Positions 1,737 through 8,665 of a stretch of DNA of 52,394 nt are shown piece by piece. The DNA is from Desulfobacterales bacterium (lineage in GTDB: Bacteria; Desulfobacterota; Desulfobacteria; Desulfobacterales; JAAELO01). The stretch's first letter is position 1. Each line of letters begins with the position of its first letter. The stretch spans positions 1 to 52,394 of the forward strand of contig JAAELO010000039.1 in the NCBI GenBank assembly GCA_024226555.1, in the 5' to 3' direction. A program made the translations under genes and the position numbers. Below the pieces are notes generated by a model. That model saw nothing but the letters and a program-made list of their open reading frames with translations, was not told the DNA's origin and did no database searches.

Positions 1737-2546
1737 ATGAAAGAATTAAGTCCACTGGGTAAAAAAATCAGTCATAAACGAAGCTACGATCCTTCACAGC
1801 TTTTCCCTATTGAAAGAGTAGGTGCAAGAACCTCTATTGGAATTGAAATACCGCAATTTAAGGGCTATGACATTTGGAACAGCTACGAGATTTCATGGTT
1901 AAATTTGAAAGGAAAACCAGAAATTGCTTTAGGTCGTTTTGTGATTCCTTTTGACAGTAAATGTATTATTGAATCTAAATCTATGAAGCTTTACCTAAAC
2001 TCTTTTAACCAAACACGCTTCAAATCATTTGAAACAGTTGAGGAAACTATAAAGAAAGATTTAAGCTTCGCCTCTTCATCAGAAGTTGTTGTAAATATAA
2101 TAATGCCTGAAAACTTCAACTCTGAAACAATTGAAAACCCGAAAGGCGAATGCATTGATCATCTTGATATAGAGTTAAACGAATATATTATAACACCTGA
2201 GTACCTCAAAACAGAAGGGATTGTTACAAATGAAAAACTATATTCAAACCTTTTAAGAACAAATTGCCCTGTTACTGATCAACCGGATTGGGCTACAATT
2301 TTGATTGAATATTCTGGCAAAAAAATTCAAAGACAATCTCTCTTAAAATATATTGTTTCTTTCAGAGAACACTCAGGTTTCCATGAAAACTGTGTTGAAA
2401 CGATCTATATGGACATTATGAAGAAGTGTAACCCGGAAAAACTACTTGTTAATGCGAGATTTACAAGAAGAGGCGGGATAGATATAAATCCTTACAGATC
2501 AAACTATGATATTACACTTGAAGACAGAAGGTTAGTGAGACAATAA
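1737..2546 (+). CDS. queF: NADPH-dependent 7-cyano-7-deazaguanine reductase (preQ0 reductase)
   Basis: QueF reduces the nitrile of preQ0 to the amine of preQ1 in queuosine tRNA modification, in the cytoplasm. The 269-residue length matches the long bimodular (E. coli-type) class. The QueF motif ESKSMKLYLNSF starts near residue 79. The nucleophilic Cys177 lies in LRTNCPVTDQPDW with Asp184 downstream, and FHE is at 215-217. The ATG is preceded by AGGGTTC. No other queuosine gene and no recognisable preQ1 riboswitch lies in the window, so it appears monocistronic. A repeat-element end (TAGGGAACC) begins directly after the stop codon. Confidence 0.96.
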   Translation: MKELSPLGKKISHKRSYDPSQLFPIERVGARTSIGIEIPQFKGYDIWNSYEISWLNLKGKPEIALGRFVIPFDSKCIIESKSMKLYLNSFNQTRFKSFETVEETIKKDLSFASSSEVVVNIIMPENFNSETIENPKGECIDHLDIELNEYIITPEYLKTEGIVTNEKLYSNLLRTNCPVTDQPDWATILIEYSGKKIQRQSLLKYIVSFREHSGFHENCVETIYMDIMKKCNPEKLLVNARFTRRGGIDINPYRSNYDITLEDRRLVRQ

Positions 2547-2569: not shown

Positions 2570-3532
2570 TTACATCCTCATTTTCTGTTCAAGTTCAGAA
2601 ACAGTGCTGTAATTTTCATATACTGTTTTAATATCATTAAATGAAAGCATGTTTCTTTTTATCATCTCCTGACTGATGTTTTTTTCCACAGAAAAGGTTT
2701 TCTCATCCAGTTCAGCAAGGTAATTAATAACCAGAAAACCTGCCAGACTTTTATCAATAATTAATTCAAGATCATTGAAACCTGTAAATCCATATTTAAG
2801 AATTATTTTCAAAGATTCGATGTTTTTATTTTTGTTAAAATATTTGAGATCTTTACTCTTGGCAAAGTTCTTATCAAGAGCAGCAAGTTCCGAAAAAGCC
2901 TTATTTGAATTAATTATTTTTTCACTGAAAAGAATAGTTTTTTTTGATAGAGAACTATTCATTTTTTTAAGTATTTTGCCTGGAAAGAAAAAAGGTCTTT
3001 TAGTCGGACTTCCTTTCGGTATATCAGTTTTATTAATTATATTGATAGTATCTAAAACCCCTTCAGCATAAGTCTCATCAAAAAAAGGTTCTGGTGCCGA
3101 CACTCTAATATCTATAAATTTGTTTTTAAGAGGTATAAAATAACAGTTTAAAAAAGTTTTCTCACTATCTTCTCCATCCGTATATTCAAAAGATGCAAAA
3201 AGTGATGGGATTTCATCAACTACAATATTTGATTTCGATTCGATCCTGAAATCTTTTTTACTGTTATATTCGCTGAAAATTTCATCGGTTTTTCTATCAA
3301 ATTTACCATCATATTCTGAGACATTGATCAGAATGTAGTGTTTATTTCGTCCTGAAATCTGTAGTTCACACCAATCAGCAGGAATAGCTCTCCAGTTACT
3401 ATCTAATTCAACTGATATTTCATTTGTCCGTCCAAAAACAAGTGTGTCTTTATTTACAGTAACTTCATAACTTTTTTCTGTGTCTCCACAAGCTGTAATT
3501 AATAGACACAAAAACAATATAATTATTCTCAT
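2570..3532 (-). CDS. Unknown lipoprotein
   Basis: The 320-residue product starts with a short signal peptide ending in a lipobox (LLITAC, Cys15), so it should be lipidated and exported to an envelope membrane. The mature part has a beta-rich first half and a helical, Lys-rich second half. Three further cysteines lie in the N-terminal half. No family was recognised with confidence. The start is supported by GGAGATG upstream of the ATG. Inward-facing ends of the MITE-like family sit just outside both ends of the gene (about 2549 and 3577), so it may have been carried with, or bracketed by, repeat insertions. Confidence 0.8.
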   Translation of the reverse strand: MRIIILFLCLLITACGDTEKSYEVTVNKDTLVFGRTNEISVELDSNWRAIPADWCELQISGRNKHYILINVSEYDGKFDRKTDEIFSEYNSKKDFRIESKSNIVVDEIPSLFASFEYTDGEDSEKTFLNCYFIPLKNKFIDIRVSAPEPFFDETYAEGVLDTINIINKTDIPKGSPTKRPFFFPGKILKKMNSSLSKKTILFSEKIINSNKAFSELAALDKNFAKSKDLKYFNKNKNIESLKIILKYGFTGFNDLELIIDKSLAGFLVINYLAELDEKTFSVEKNISQEMIKRNMLSFNDIKTVYENYSTVSELEQKMRM

Positions 3533-3668: not shown

Positions 3669-3696
3669 TTGACATTTGTAATTATTTTGGTAAAAT
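3669..3696 (+). promoter_or_regulatory. Sigma-70 type promoter for the c-di-GMP riboswitch transcript
   Basis: A perfect -35 hexamer TTGACA (3669-3674) is followed, after 16 bases, by TAAAAT (3691-3696) as -10. The predicted transcription start is near 3703, exactly where the riboswitch aptamer begins. Confidence 0.7.
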
Positions 3697-3704
3697 TAAA
3701 TAAA

Positions 3705-3892
3705 GAAAATAGCAAACCATAGCGAAAGCTTGGGACGCAAAGCCGCTGGCCTAACTCCTTGTATACGTTAATTAAATGGATTTATCTTTTTAGGGGTTCG
3801 ACACTGTTTTTACATAAAAAATACGAACTTATCAAAAAAAGAGAGCTTAATCCTGAATTAGTATAAGGGTATGGTAGCAGGGCTGCCTTTTC
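3705..3892 (+). ncRNA. c-di-GMP-I (GEMM-I) riboswitch with extended P3 helix
   Basis: The GEMM-I signature is present in order: GCAAACC (3712-3718), a GAAA tetraloop hairpin, GGGACGCAAAGCC (3732-3744), GGCCTAA (3748-3754), and the 3' half TATGGTAGC (3870-3878) with GGGCTGCC (3880-3887). CCTAA and TATGG form the classical tetraloop receptor. P1 can close with GAAAA (3705-3709) and TTTTC (3888-3892). The P3 arm holds an unusual insert of roughly 100 bases that itself pairs (for example GTTCG with CGAAC and GGATT with AATCC). GGTAGC-AGG-GCTGCC followed by TTTT could act as a terminator, competing with P1. No + strand gene follows; the RNA points into the 3' end of the hybrid kinase gene. Confidence 0.9.
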
Positions 3893-3895
3893 AAT

Positions 3896-6800
3896 TTATA
3901 TCTTTGCAATGATACCTTTAAAAATATCTTCGGCTTTTTCAAATTCATATCTAAACAGATGTTTTTCAAAACTATTTAAATCACTGGCCAATTTTTTATT
4001 ATTTAGGGATGTTTTTACATGACTTAGAAACCATTTATGACTACCAAGATCCCGATTATCTAATAAACTTTGCATCTTATCAAGATTGAACTTTATATCT
4101 TTTTTAGAAATAGTATTAAGCCCATATAATTCCTGATTCTCAAGAGTTTCTTTTACAGCGGGAACATTATCCTGTGAATAATATTTCTCTTTTTGAGATA
4201 CCCAAAAATTGACTTTTGTATAAAGTTCCTCTTCAACAATAGGCTTGGTAATATAATCATCCATACCTGCCTCAAAACATCTTAAACGGTCTTCTTCCTG
4301 AACATACGCAGTCATGGCAACTATTGGCAGATATTTCATATTTAATTCATTTTTAATAATTTCTGTTGCAGTATATCCATCCATTTCCGGCATTTGAACA
4401 TCCATAAGTACTATATCAAAATCATTGTTTTTTACTTTTTCGACAGCTTCAATACCATTTTTTGCAATACTAACTTCAACTCCCTGAAGATTAAGAACTT
4501 CAATTGCAACCTGTCTGTTGATTTTGTTATCTTCTACCAGTAACAATTTTTTTCCACTTATATCATAATAATCTTTAATAGCAGGTACTTCCTTAAATGC
4601 ATCTTTTTTACTTATTTTGTATTCAGATAAAAATGATAGTCTAAAACTGAATTTACTACCCTTATGATACTCACTTGTAAGCCAGATATTACCACCCATA
4701 AGGTTTATCAGTTTTTTTGATATGCTAAGACCAAGGCCTGTACCGCCGAACTCTCTTGTGGTAGAATTATCAGCCTGGGAAAAAGATGAAAACAGATCCT
4801 TTGTCAGATTTTCAGGAATTCCAATTCCGGAATCAGACACATTAAAAGTTAGACATACCCTGCCAAAGCTTATATCATCTGGAGTAACACTGATCTCAAT
4901 TTCACCTTCAGAAGTGAATTTTACAGCATTCCCCATTAAATTTACCAGAACCTGTCTTAACCTTAATGGATCTCCAATTAATACATCTGGTATTTGCTCA
5001 TCAACGATAAGATTTAAAAATATCCCTTTTTTTTCAGTTTTATCAAAAAACATATCAATAACACTTTTCAATATATTCCGAAGATTAAAAGGTATTGATT
5101 CAAGTTTCATTTTCCCTGCTTCTATCTTTGAAAAATCGAGCACATCATTTATTATCCCAAGTAGCATATTACTTGAATATTTCATTTTCTCAGCATAATT
5201 TCTTTGCTGTTCTGAAAGACCTGTTTTTAAAATCAGATTATTAAAACCTATTATAGAGTTCATTGGAGTTCTGATTTCATGACTCATATTTGCAAGAAAC
5301 ATACTCTTAATCTTTGCATTTTTTTCTGCTTCCTCTTTTGCTTTTGCCAAATCCGCCTGGGACTTTTTATATATTATAATCTGGGAAATTAAACCTGCAA
5401 ACATTTCCAGAGGTTTTACCGTTTCACTGGTTGGTAGGTCTCCTGATTTTGAAGTATCAACTGAAATAACTCCAATAAGATTACCTTTTTTGTCATCCAT
5501 ACGAACAAAAAGATTATCCTTTGTGTGCCATTTTTCATCAGTATCTGAATCATTAGCAACATGCTCATTTTTATCATTATTTGAATGGTGGAGAAAAAAC
5601 GATTTAATACCAATTTTTTTACTTAGTGCCAAAACTTTTTCAAATTTTCCAATGTTTGTTCTTTTGTTCTCAAGGTATTCTATGTATTTCTTTTCAACTC
5701 CTCTGTAACTCAAAATTTTTCTGCTCGTATTCCTGCTTTCAAAGTAAGATATAACTACCCTTTGAAAATCAGAGTGTTTAATTATTGCCCTGCTGATCTC
5801 ATCAAAGAAGTCCTCTTCATCCATGGAAATCATATCTGCAACTTCCATACTGAAATTTTCAGTTTGTTTAGATAATATCTCAAGTTGCTCCCTGTAAGCT
5901 GATAAATCCTCTTCTGTTCTTTTTCTGTATATCGCTGAAGCGATCTGTTCACCAAGCATCTCAAAAATGTTAATATCACTTTTTGAGTATTTATCAGCAT
6001 TATTATAGTCCTGAGCAACAATAGCTCCTAATACTTTACCTCTTGTCTTAAGTGGTGAGCCTAACCAAACTTTAGGAATACGTCCATAATGTGTTTTTCC
6101 ACTCTCCTTAGACCTTTCAATTATCTGATCATAATATAACAGTATTGGCTTACCGGCTAAAATAACCTCACCAGTAAGAGAAGTAGTTTTTTTTACATTT
6201 TTTATCGGGTTAACAAGATATTTGTCATCTGAATCTTTCACATAGGGTATGTCTATAATGTCATTTTTCTCATCGTAGGTGGATATATAAAAATTAGGTA
6301 CATCAATAACTGAATCAAGTGCCGAGTGTATAACTGTATAGAGCTCTGAAAGATTGTAGGATGTATTAACTGCGTTGGAAATATTGTAAAGAGCCTTGAT
6401 AGTTTTTTCACTTTGTATGAGCTCCTCTTCAGCCTTTTTTTTAGAAATGGCATTTGCAACCTGCTTTGAAGCAGCTTCAAAAATCATTATATCATTTTGA
6501 GTATATTGATTTTCATCATCATAACTATATATAACCATAGCACCAATTACTATACCATCTACTTCAAGAGGTACACCGATCCAGCTTTCTGTCGCTGTTC
6601 CATAAAAAGTTTTCCCTTGCTGAGAAAGCCTCTTGAGCATCTCTTTTTTATTTAGATAAAGGGGTTTACCACTAAGAATGACTTCTCCAGTGGGAGAAGT
6701 ATTTTTCGTTACATTATGGAAAATATTATAATCATATGACGAATCCTGAAAATAAGGAAACGTTATATAGTCAGATTCTCTGTTATATAATGCAAAACAA

Positions 6801-8500
6801 AATTCTGTTATTTTAATACTTTCAGATAGTGCAACATGTATATTTTTGTAGAGTTCTTCAAGACTTTCTGTGTTATTAATAGTATTGGATATTTCGAGAA
6901 GAGTTTTTACCTTTTTTTCACTTAGTCTTAAATCTTCCTCTGCGAGTTTTTTGGAAATACCAATTGCAATCTGCTTGGATGCAGCTTCAAGTATCATTAT
7001 ATCGTGATCTGTATATTGATTTGCATCTTCATAACTGAAGATTGCCATTACACCAAGCACTTTTCCATCCATTTCCAGTGGTATACCAATCCATGCTTCT
7101 GTAGCTGTTCCGTAATATGTTTTTCCGTCTTCATTAACTCGATTAAGCATCTCTTGTTTATTTAAGATAACAGGTTTTTTAGTTAAAACAACCTCTCCTG
7201 TGGGAGAAGTGTTATCAGATATTTTTAACAATGGATGATAAATATTATTGGGGGAATCATTTGAATCATCCAAATAAGGGAACGTTATTGAATCAGACTC
7301 TTCATGGTATAGAGCGATAAAAAACTCTGAAATATCTATGCCCTTCTTAAGAGATTTATAAATTGTAGGATATAGATCATCAAGATTGTCAACCTTGTTC
7401 ATAGCATTGGATATTTCAAGAAGAGTTGTTACTTTTTTTTCACTTTGTATCAAATCCTCTTCAATTTTCTTTCTGGAAATAGCTATTGCAATTTGATCTG
7501 AAACAGATTCAAACACAAGCAGATCTTCCCTGCTATATTGATTCGGACTTTCATAACTTTGAGTTGCCATAGCCCCAATAACTTCATCATTAATAATTAA
7601 AGGAACTGCCATCCATTGTTCTGAAATTACTCCCATACCTTTTTTTCCCGAGTTTTTAATAGCTTCAATTCTTTCTTCACGGGATAGTAAAAAAGGTACA
7701 CCTTTTTTTATCACTTCAGCTGTAAATATATAGTAATCACCATCTATTGGAATTTCAGAGTTCCCAAGATTATCTATTTTATTAGTGTTAAAAGCCAGAC
7801 TTAAAGAGTTGTTCTCCTTATTATACAGTGCTATATGAAAATTCTCCACATCAATGATTTTCTGTAGTGAAGTATGTATAGATTGAAAAAGTTCATCAAT
7901 GCTTGTGGATGTACTCACAGCGTTTGATATCGTAAGAAGAGTCTTAACTGTTTTCTCATTCTGTATCATCTCATCTTCAGATATTTTCTTTTTTATTGCA
8001 ATCGCTATCTGGTCAGAAACAATCTCAAATATCTTTAGGTCATTTAAATCGAAAGCACTGCTGCTCTTATAACTCTGGGTAGCCATAGCACCAATTACTC
8101 TATCTTCTATTTTAAGTGGTACTGCCATCCACTGTTTAGGAATATCTCCAGGAACTGGTTTACCTGATTTTTTTATAGACGCATCAATCTCATCATTTGC
8201 GATCATTAGAGTTTTACCGGTCTTTATAACTTCGGATGTGAATGAGTGCTTATCTCCATTCAAAGGAATTTCAACAATATCTAAATTATCAACAGTATTT
8301 GTATCAAAAACAATTACAGAACATTTTCTTGTTTCATCAAAAAGTGCGATATGAAATTGAGAAACATCAATTATATGACTAAGAGATGTATGTATTGAAA
8401 GAAATAACTGGTCAAGATTTGACGTATTGTTTACGGCGTTAGCAATGCTGTAAAGTATTTGATTTATGTCACCTTTATGTTGATCACTATTATTTTTCAT
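3896..8500 (-). CDS. Multi-GAF hybrid sensor histidine kinase with receiver domain
   Basis: This signalling kinase of about 1534 residues has no membrane segment, so it should be cytoplasmic. Five tandem GAF domains (each about 150 residues, sharing a W(I/M)(G/A)VPL...GAM(A/V) pattern) fill residues 20-870. A more divergent GAF-like domain follows. HisKA carries the phospho-acceptor His in MSHEIRTPMNSI, the HATPase has the N box NLMGNAVKF and the G1 box DSGIGIP, and a receiver domain has the acceptor Asp in VLMDVQMPEMDG. A C-terminal tail of about 110 residues lacks an obvious HPt histidine. I chose the ATG at 8500, preceded by AGGAA, over an in-frame TTG at 8518. Adjacent GAF copies look recently duplicated. 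Its ligands are unknown. Confidence 0.93.
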   Translation of the reverse strand: MKNNSDQHKGDINQILYSIANAVNNTSNLDQLFLSIHTSLSHIIDVSQFHIALFDETRKCSVIVFDTNTVDNLDIVEIPLNGDKHSFTSEVIKTGKTLMIANDEIDASIKKSGKPVPGDIPKQWMAVPLKIEDRVIGAMATQSYKSSSAFDLNDLKIFEIVSDQIAIAIKKKISEDEMIQNEKTVKTLLTISNAVSTSTSIDELFQSIHTSLQKIIDVENFHIALYNKENNSLSLAFNTNKIDNLGNSEIPIDGDYYIFTAEVIKKGVPFLLSREERIEAIKNSGKKGMGVISEQWMAVPLIINDEVIGAMATQSYESPNQYSREDLLVFESVSDQIAIAISRKKIEEDLIQSEKKVTTLLEISNAMNKVDNLDDLYPTIYKSLKKGIDISEFFIALYHEESDSITFPYLDDSNDSPNNIYHPLLKISDNTSPTGEVVLTKKPVILNKQEMLNRVNEDGKTYYGTATEAWIGIPLEMDGKVLGVMAIFSYEDANQYTDHDIMILEAASKQIAIGISKKLAEEDLRLSEKKVKTLLEISNTINNTESLEELYKNIHVALSESIKITEFCFALYNRESDYITFPYFQDSSYDYNIFHNVTKNTSPTGEVILSGKPLYLNKKEMLKRLSQQGKTFYGTATESWIGVPLEVDGIVIGAMVIYSYDDENQYTQNDIMIFEAASKQVANAISKKKAEEELIQSEKTIKALYNISNAVNTSYNLSELYTVIHSALDSVIDVPNFYISTYDEKNDIIDIPYVKDSDDKYLVNPIKNVKKTTSLTGEVILAGKPILLYYDQIIERSKESGKTHYGRIPKVWLGSPLKTRGKVLGAIVAQDYNNADKYSKSDINIFEMLGEQIASAIYRKRTEEDLSAYREQLEILSKQTENFSMEVADMISMDEEDFFDEISRAIIKHSDFQRVVISYFESRNTSRKILSYRGVEKKYIEYLENKRTNIGKFEKVLALSKKIGIKSFFLHHSNNDKNEHVANDSDTDEKWHTKDNLFVRMDDKKGNLIGVISVDTSKSGDLPTSETVKPLEMFAGLISQIIIYKKSQADLAKAKEEAEKNAKIKSMFLANMSHEIRTPMNSIIGFNNLILKTGLSEQQRNYAEKMKYSSNMLLGIINDVLDFSKIEAGKMKLESIPFNLRNILKSVIDMFFDKTEKKGIFLNLIVDEQIPDVLIGDPLRLRQVLVNLMGNAVKFTSEGEIEISVTPDDISFGRVCLTFNVSDSGIGIPENLTKDLFSSFSQADNSTTREFGGTGLGLSISKKLINLMGGNIWLTSEYHKGSKFSFRLSFLSEYKISKKDAFKEVPAIKDYYDISGKKLLLVEDNKINRQVAIEVLNLQGVEVSIAKNGIEAVEKVKNNDFDIVLMDVQMPEMDGYTATEIIKNELNMKYLPIVAMTAYVQEEDRLRCFEAGMDDYITKPIVEEELYTKVNFWVSQKEKYYSQDNVPAVKETLENQELYGLNTISKKDIKFNLDKMQSLLDNRDLGSHKWFLSHVKTSLNNKKLASDLNSFEKHLFRYEFEKAEDIFKGIIAKI

Positions 8501-8665
8501 GTTTATTCCTGATAACAAAAAGATTATCTAAAAAAAAACAAATAATCAAGGCGATGCAATTATTATATTTATGCGGATTCAGGATTGTTTTTTAAACTAA
8601 TAATAAACTTAGAGACGTCTTAATATAATGAATTGATTTATCAAGACATGTTTTTTTATGTTTCC

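Follow-up and report, generated by a model that had tools for sequence, protein, structure and literature searches.

A predicted c-di-GMP-I aptamer with a long P3 arm as a candidate stand-alone small RNA of the Desulfobacterales

Aptamers of the c-di-GMP-I class usually reside in leaders. Their described architecture includes a GNRA-type loop on P2 and a receptor in P3 (PMC12564702). The closest stand-alone case is merRNA of Bdellovibrio bacteriovorus, an RNA of 445 nt which is described as massively expressed during attack phase and proposed to be a c-di-GMP store, and for which conservation is reported to be lacking beyond the Bdellovibrio lineage (PMC3627812). Another described system is Bc1 of Bacillus, a c-di-GMP-I riboswitch reported to have two terminators and a long expression platform (PMC11218506).

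The window (the whole stretch of DNA analysed here, 52,394 nucleotides from a bacterium of the order Desulfobacterales) contains a c-di-GMP-I-like RNA of unusual length, termed here the long form. As a predicted transcript it would be like merRNA in having a c-di-GMP aptamer in a non-coding RNA with no conserved ORF downstream; merRNA itself is massively expressed (PMC3627812). It shares with Bc1 a c-di-GMP-I aptamer followed by terminators, but Bc1 is described as acting on downstream genes and has its extra length behind the aptamer, not in P3 (PMC11218506). As in the antisense-acting riboswitches described in a survey (PMC9943018), the aptamer runs toward a convergent gene within 500 nt, although this placement was not seen in 14 relatives. 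As in aptamers of Rfam family RF03167, the core is matched at full length from P1 to P3, but the P3 loop measures 121–191 nt in the long forms, while the ordinary listed matches span about 73–120 nt overall. The papers listed in open-access literature searches include none on a long-P3 c-di-GMP-I RNA of this order. The locus is, as judged from sequence comparison, one member of a conserved RNA family with a c-di-GMP-I aptamer and a structured arm, and with moderate confidence we read it as an independent small RNA gene with a GGC aptamer, one whose RNA would bind c-di-GMP in the manner of merRNA, and not as an mRNA leader.

The covariance model RF03167 (c-di-GMP-I-GGC) matches window positions 3702–3891 (+) at 42.6 bits (E 7.5e-9; model positions 1–80), and RF01051, the family against which the initial annotation had proposed to check the region, matches the same aptamer at 32.2 bits (E 5.4e-4). 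Both scores are under the Rfam gathering scores (59 and 35, respectively); the RF03167 alignment has 114 inserted, unmodelled positions within the P3 loop, which cost score. In a gathering-level Rfam scan of the whole window the aptamer is absent from the matches, the sole match being a 6S RNA (RF00013; 18750–18925, minus strand; 66.5 bits, above its gathering score of 46.4). P1, P2 and P3 are all intact in the family models (RF03167 and RF01051), and positions 3702–3891 (+) are predicted to be a c-di-GMP-I aptamer for which the GGC subtype fits best. The orphan c-di-GMP-I RNA seen in the initial annotation is thus borne out, both by the RF03167 match and by the same RNA in 14 relatives; its c-di-GMP-I signature stands as an intact aptamer core, with the GGC subtype fitting best, and the 121-nt P3 insert had been overlooked. 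Two short sequences at the insert's base, CCTAA and TATGG, resemble by eye a putative receptor for the GAAA loop on P2. Coordinates of the elements are given in Table 1.

Table 1. Features of the long-form RNA locus and its neighbours in the window.
Feature	Position	Strand	Basis
c-di-GMP-I-GGC aptamer with P3 insert (RNA body, predicted)	3702..3892	+	RF03167 at 3702–3891; MFE fold has P1, P2 and P3
Promoter-like site TTGACA-16-TAAAAT	3669..3696	+	11 of 12 matches; TTG at the same offset in 15/15 long forms
P1 5' strand GAAAA	3705..3709	+	Pairs with TTTTC 3888–3892; MFE fold; both-side changes among 4 relatives
P2 with GAAA loop (3724–3727)	3717..3733	+	RF03167 alignment and fold
P3 5' strand AGCCGCTGGCC	3741..3751	+	RF03167 alignment and fold
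121-nt P3-loop insert (long arm)	3752..3872	+	Closed by helix P4 (3757–3764 with 3861–3868); MFE fold
P3 3' strand, or alternative hairpin GGTAGC-AGG-GCTGCC then TTTT	3873..3887	+	Hairpin in 15/15 long forms
P1 3' strand TTTTC, also short U tract	3888..3892	+	MFE fold
Convergent multi-GAF hybrid histidine kinase (neighbour, outside the RNA)	3896..8518	-	ORF list; Pfam domains
320-aa lipoprotein-like ORF (by eye), upstream of the promoter, divergent from the RNA	2570..3532	-	

The RNA of the window folds moderately better than its shuffles (z −1.75; 7 of 200 shuffles as good). A comparison of this value with those of relatives (−3.7 to −5.1) was dropped, as the stretches from the relatives included the terminator; the RNA of the relative G017, taken without its terminator, has a z of −1.87 and folds no better than that of the window. 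Among the 150 candidates scored (of 183) in the genome itself, this is the one RF03167 match with an E value no higher than 1, and a second RF01051 candidate (L002; 18.8 bits, E 1.05) was dismissed as chance. Metabolism of c-di-GMP is indicated in this genome by 29 GGDEF matches. The GGC subtype is widespread in the order, being present in 105 of 146 genomes at E 0.01.

At least 15 long forms of 192–262 nt (the window and 14 relatives) are present among the matches listed for 389 genomes of the order Desulfobacterales, a lower bound in that scoring covered a few top candidates of each genome. They span five families (f1, f11, f18, f35 and f59) and seven genera (g1, g18, g76, g94, g114, g81 and g85), with 8 of the 11 sampled genomes of genus g85 having the long form. 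The window genome is the single representative of its family in the genome set. A DNA search of 58 relatives singled out the genome G017, which aligns with the RNA at either end and leaves a comparable gap between, and within the family of G017 (8 members) the long form is also found in G081 and G168. Since exact-pattern searches found few members (2 of 389 genomes, 3 of 389 genomes and 2 contigs), covariance models were used: model R1, built from the four long forms of the window, G017, G081 and G168, gave nine more in 291 genomes of the class, and model R2, built from those nine, gave two more, the order-wide set being the 389 genomes. Matches in G039, G035, G362, G497 and G567 were left out of the long-form members. 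That of G039 (268 nt) probably bridges tandem aptamers, that of G035 (252 nt, E 2e-7) has no long core by pattern, and that of G362 measures 152 nt. Outside the order, the matches listed for 297 genomes of the phylum are all short apart from two c-di-GMP-I-like matches of intermediate length, G497:C48:74455–74629 (175 nt) and G567:C29:35843–36037 (195 nt).

The arm, whose length is shortest in the window among the 15 long forms, falls into two subgroups, of which subgroup A (f1 and f18; insert 121–161 nt) shows greater divergence and subgroup B (f59, f11 and f35; insert 172–191 nt) contains long identical runs. Helix P4, which adjoins P3, is common to both. Among four relatives of subgroup A, two of the eight P4 pairs are changed on both sides with pairing kept, one such change sitting in the window copy, and P1 pairs are likewise changed on both sides. 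For the arm of subgroup B, 10 of 57 pairs are changed on both sides against 3.3 in shuffles, none of 500 shuffles reaching 10, and the number of paired cells drops by half if the partner is shifted one column. The alignments used for these counts also served to derive the arm structures, which biases the counts in their favour. When three groups are compared, identity is 59–83% in the insert, 22–62% in the stretch before the promoter and 18–65% in the spacer before the next gene. A role as a CsrA sponge was rejected, as GGA motifs in the insert are without excess (the best of the 15 is reached by 74 of 300 shuffles), and no conserved ORF was seen by eye in the insert in the subgroup B alignment. 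The arm is predicted to be a conserved, folded extension of P3.

The promoter-like site abuts the aptamer, and a TG precedes its second hexamer. The match alone proves little, since a scan of the window counted 15 such sites where shuffles gave 10.3 (sd 2.4), but the putative promoter is backed by the relatives, the stretch upstream of all 15 long forms having a TTG at offset 11 or 12; the near-consensus promoter of the initial annotation thereby holds as a prediction. Also as annotated, no gene follows on the same strand in the window, where the 400 bases past the aptamer contain no start of a + strand ORF of at least 40 aa. The convergent hybrid kinase is confirmed too, its stop lying four bases from P1. 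The kinase contains five GAF_2 stretches, HisKA, HATPase_c and Response_reg (Pfam). The lipoprotein-like ORF has no Pfam match at E 0.01, and upstream of it lies a QueF-type gene with QueF_N and QueF domains (window 1737–2546, +).

Of the 15 long forms, 12 are followed within 120 nt by a separate, strong hairpin and its T tract, against 7 of 45 short (ordinary) aptamers, these being 47 best-scoring loci (30 + 17, no random sample; L082 omitted as the same site as L038) less L024 and L050, which have little flank. A stricter rule finds a terminator in 6 of 13 long forms and in 4 of 47 short ones. In 10 of the 12 long forms the separate terminator starts 13–19 nt behind P3; the exceptions without one are the window, G299 and G167, the last having an irregular hairpin. 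In the window it was probably lost when the kinase gene came beside the RNA through a local deletion, and G299 shows a similar loss. The genes behind the long forms vary in kind: some are, by eye, argS-like or lipoprotein-sorting-like, and others encode sensor kinases, cNMP-binding proteins (the single one tested has PF00027) or a small protein. The separate terminators and these varied neighbours give the RNA the look of a discrete unit in the relatives, and the trans role or ligand sink that the initial annotation had raised gains support as a suggestion. Aptamer-independent folding of the terminator, which lies between 0.82 and 0.996 in all 12 long forms, was dropped as proof of a discrete unit, since values of at least 0.75 are reached by 5 of 7 terminators of short forms as well; equilibrium folding cannot settle whether the ligand controls the terminator.

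A serious rival, which we consider rather unlikely, is a cis-acting riboswitch whose aptamer, perhaps via the arm, would govern whether transcription terminates ahead of the next gene; in the window that gene would have been lost by rearrangement. Leaders are the usual place of c-di-GMP-I aptamers, which favours such control. The initial annotation had itself named a coding gene behind the riboswitch in relatives, simply lost here, as refuting its claim. This is in part what the relatives show: a gene is present on the same strand within about 290 nt in 12 of 14 relatives, but it belongs to several unrelated kinds, and in G168 no close same-strand gene is found behind the long RNA. The window copy itself is not placed as the 5' leader of a controlled gene, and the relatives are mixed in this respect. 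Distance to the next gene fails to separate long from short forms, as an automatic rule finds a + ORF within 300 nt behind 9 of 13 long forms and behind 36 of 47 short ones, the latter count being in keeping with leaders. Genes for cNMP-binding or small proteins recur behind the long forms in f59 and f11. In G299 (L101, about 701–1472) the RNA directly joins a gene that is cNMP-binding-like and has a ribosome-binding site, and the terminator seen in sister genomes is missing, an arrangement that favours cis control, although this junction may be a deletion or an assembly effect. Against it, G337 (L112 1850–2024) keeps an intact RNA while the gene behind it is degraded, a cNMP-gene piece (15 aa, 67%) and a kinase piece (44 aa, 59%) being fused there, and in two f35 genomes a TTGACA promoter seemingly lies between terminator and kinase (by eye). 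The small protein family (KQ[IV]SV..., about 122–124 aa where the start is clear; L106 6153–6527, L100 6720–7088 and L099 6821–7318) has no Pfam match in the member tested; in G253 and G167 its gene follows the long RNA, and in G317 it follows the cNMP gene.

The relation of the terminator to the aptamer bears on cis control from both sides. In none of the 12 long forms examined does a terminator arm match the core of the aptamer above the level of shuffles (best 83 of 500; insert left out), which speaks against it, whereas the six short forms tested (of seven with a terminator, L025 being left out) all lie at or under 58 of 500 shuffles, a line set post hoc. When the insert is included, the arm of the terminator matches it in 4 of 12 long forms at 7 or fewer of 300 shuffles (G317 6, G216 4, G174 0 and G342 7). 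These matches run through the conserved GACCGGATGA element and CCGG-type arms; the element is altered in G229 and G167, so the coupling is not kept throughout. Coupling between arm and terminator is a possibility on this evidence, and it is mainly this which lets cis control retain its weight.

The initial annotation had proposed that c-di-GMP could toggle the locus between a short transcript and a long antisense one that tunes the hybrid kinase, a model which now appears very improbable. The kinase lies opposite and near, in the placement of an antisense riboswitch, and a survey reports that, of the riboswitches it covered, those for c-di-GMP tend most strongly to the antisense orientation (152 antisense, 2,554 sense; PMC9943018). 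The terminator-like stem on which the switch was to depend is present (1 found, 0.6 expected), but it is the 3' strand of the aptamer's own P3. In each of the 15 long forms the aptamer includes this hairpin, which has 5–6 pairs and is weak (−4.5 to −6.9 kcal/mol), and that of the window (−6.9 kcal/mol) is followed by four U. In the model of the window RNA, the P3 fold (−47.0 kcal/mol) and the hairpin fold (−45.9 kcal/mol) differ by 1.1 kcal/mol, so either would be reachable. P1 persists in each of them, however, and the U tract, being the 3' strand of P1, would therefore stay paired; a regulated terminator at this hairpin is possible but weak. No convergent kinase was seen by eye in the 14 relatives, all of which lie outside the family of the window, so in these relatives the antisense placement is not kept. 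The adjacency of the kinase is probably a coincidence, and any antisense effect on it is probably incidental, selection for it not being indicated by the findings here. The earlier observation was right and the mechanism proposed for it mostly not.

That the window copy is a decaying relic of a small RNA or riboswitch, without present function, is the least probable reading and hardly credible, for although its insert is the shortest of the 15, its separate terminator is missing, its fold is only moderately better than shuffles and it is the sole RF03167 match among the candidates scored in its genome, the core, P1 and near-consensus promoter are intact, the P4 pair changed on both sides still pairs, and the G017 RNA without its terminator folds no better.

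The preferred reading therefore remains that of a discrete c-di-GMP-binding small RNA, whose function is inferred. The RNA would be transcribed from the promoter-like site abutting the aptamer and would bind c-di-GMP; binding may favour the long-range P3 over two local hairpins and so fix the base of the arm, which may then act in trans on an RNA or protein partner. Alternatively, the RNA may serve as a c-di-GMP reservoir or buffer, as proposed for merRNA. In the window, the end of the kinase gene probably came to lie beside the RNA by the local deletion, and an antisense effect would be incidental. It is suggested only tentatively, and with less confidence than the small RNA itself, that the P3 arm of this conserved Desulfobacterales small-RNA family is an effector domain, the ligand-fixed P3 presenting the arm to a partner or hiding it from one.

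Curated cut-offs can miss aptamers that carry large P3 inserts. merRNA is a precedent for a stand-alone c-di-GMP RNA, and its function is still described as a proposal (PMC3627812). If the reading offered here is true, a second stand-alone RNA, present in several families and having a structured arm under selection, would make trans action or ligand storage testable comparatively in more than one lineage. If the arm is an effector, the family would be an allosteric second-messenger RNA and not the riboswitch of a gene.
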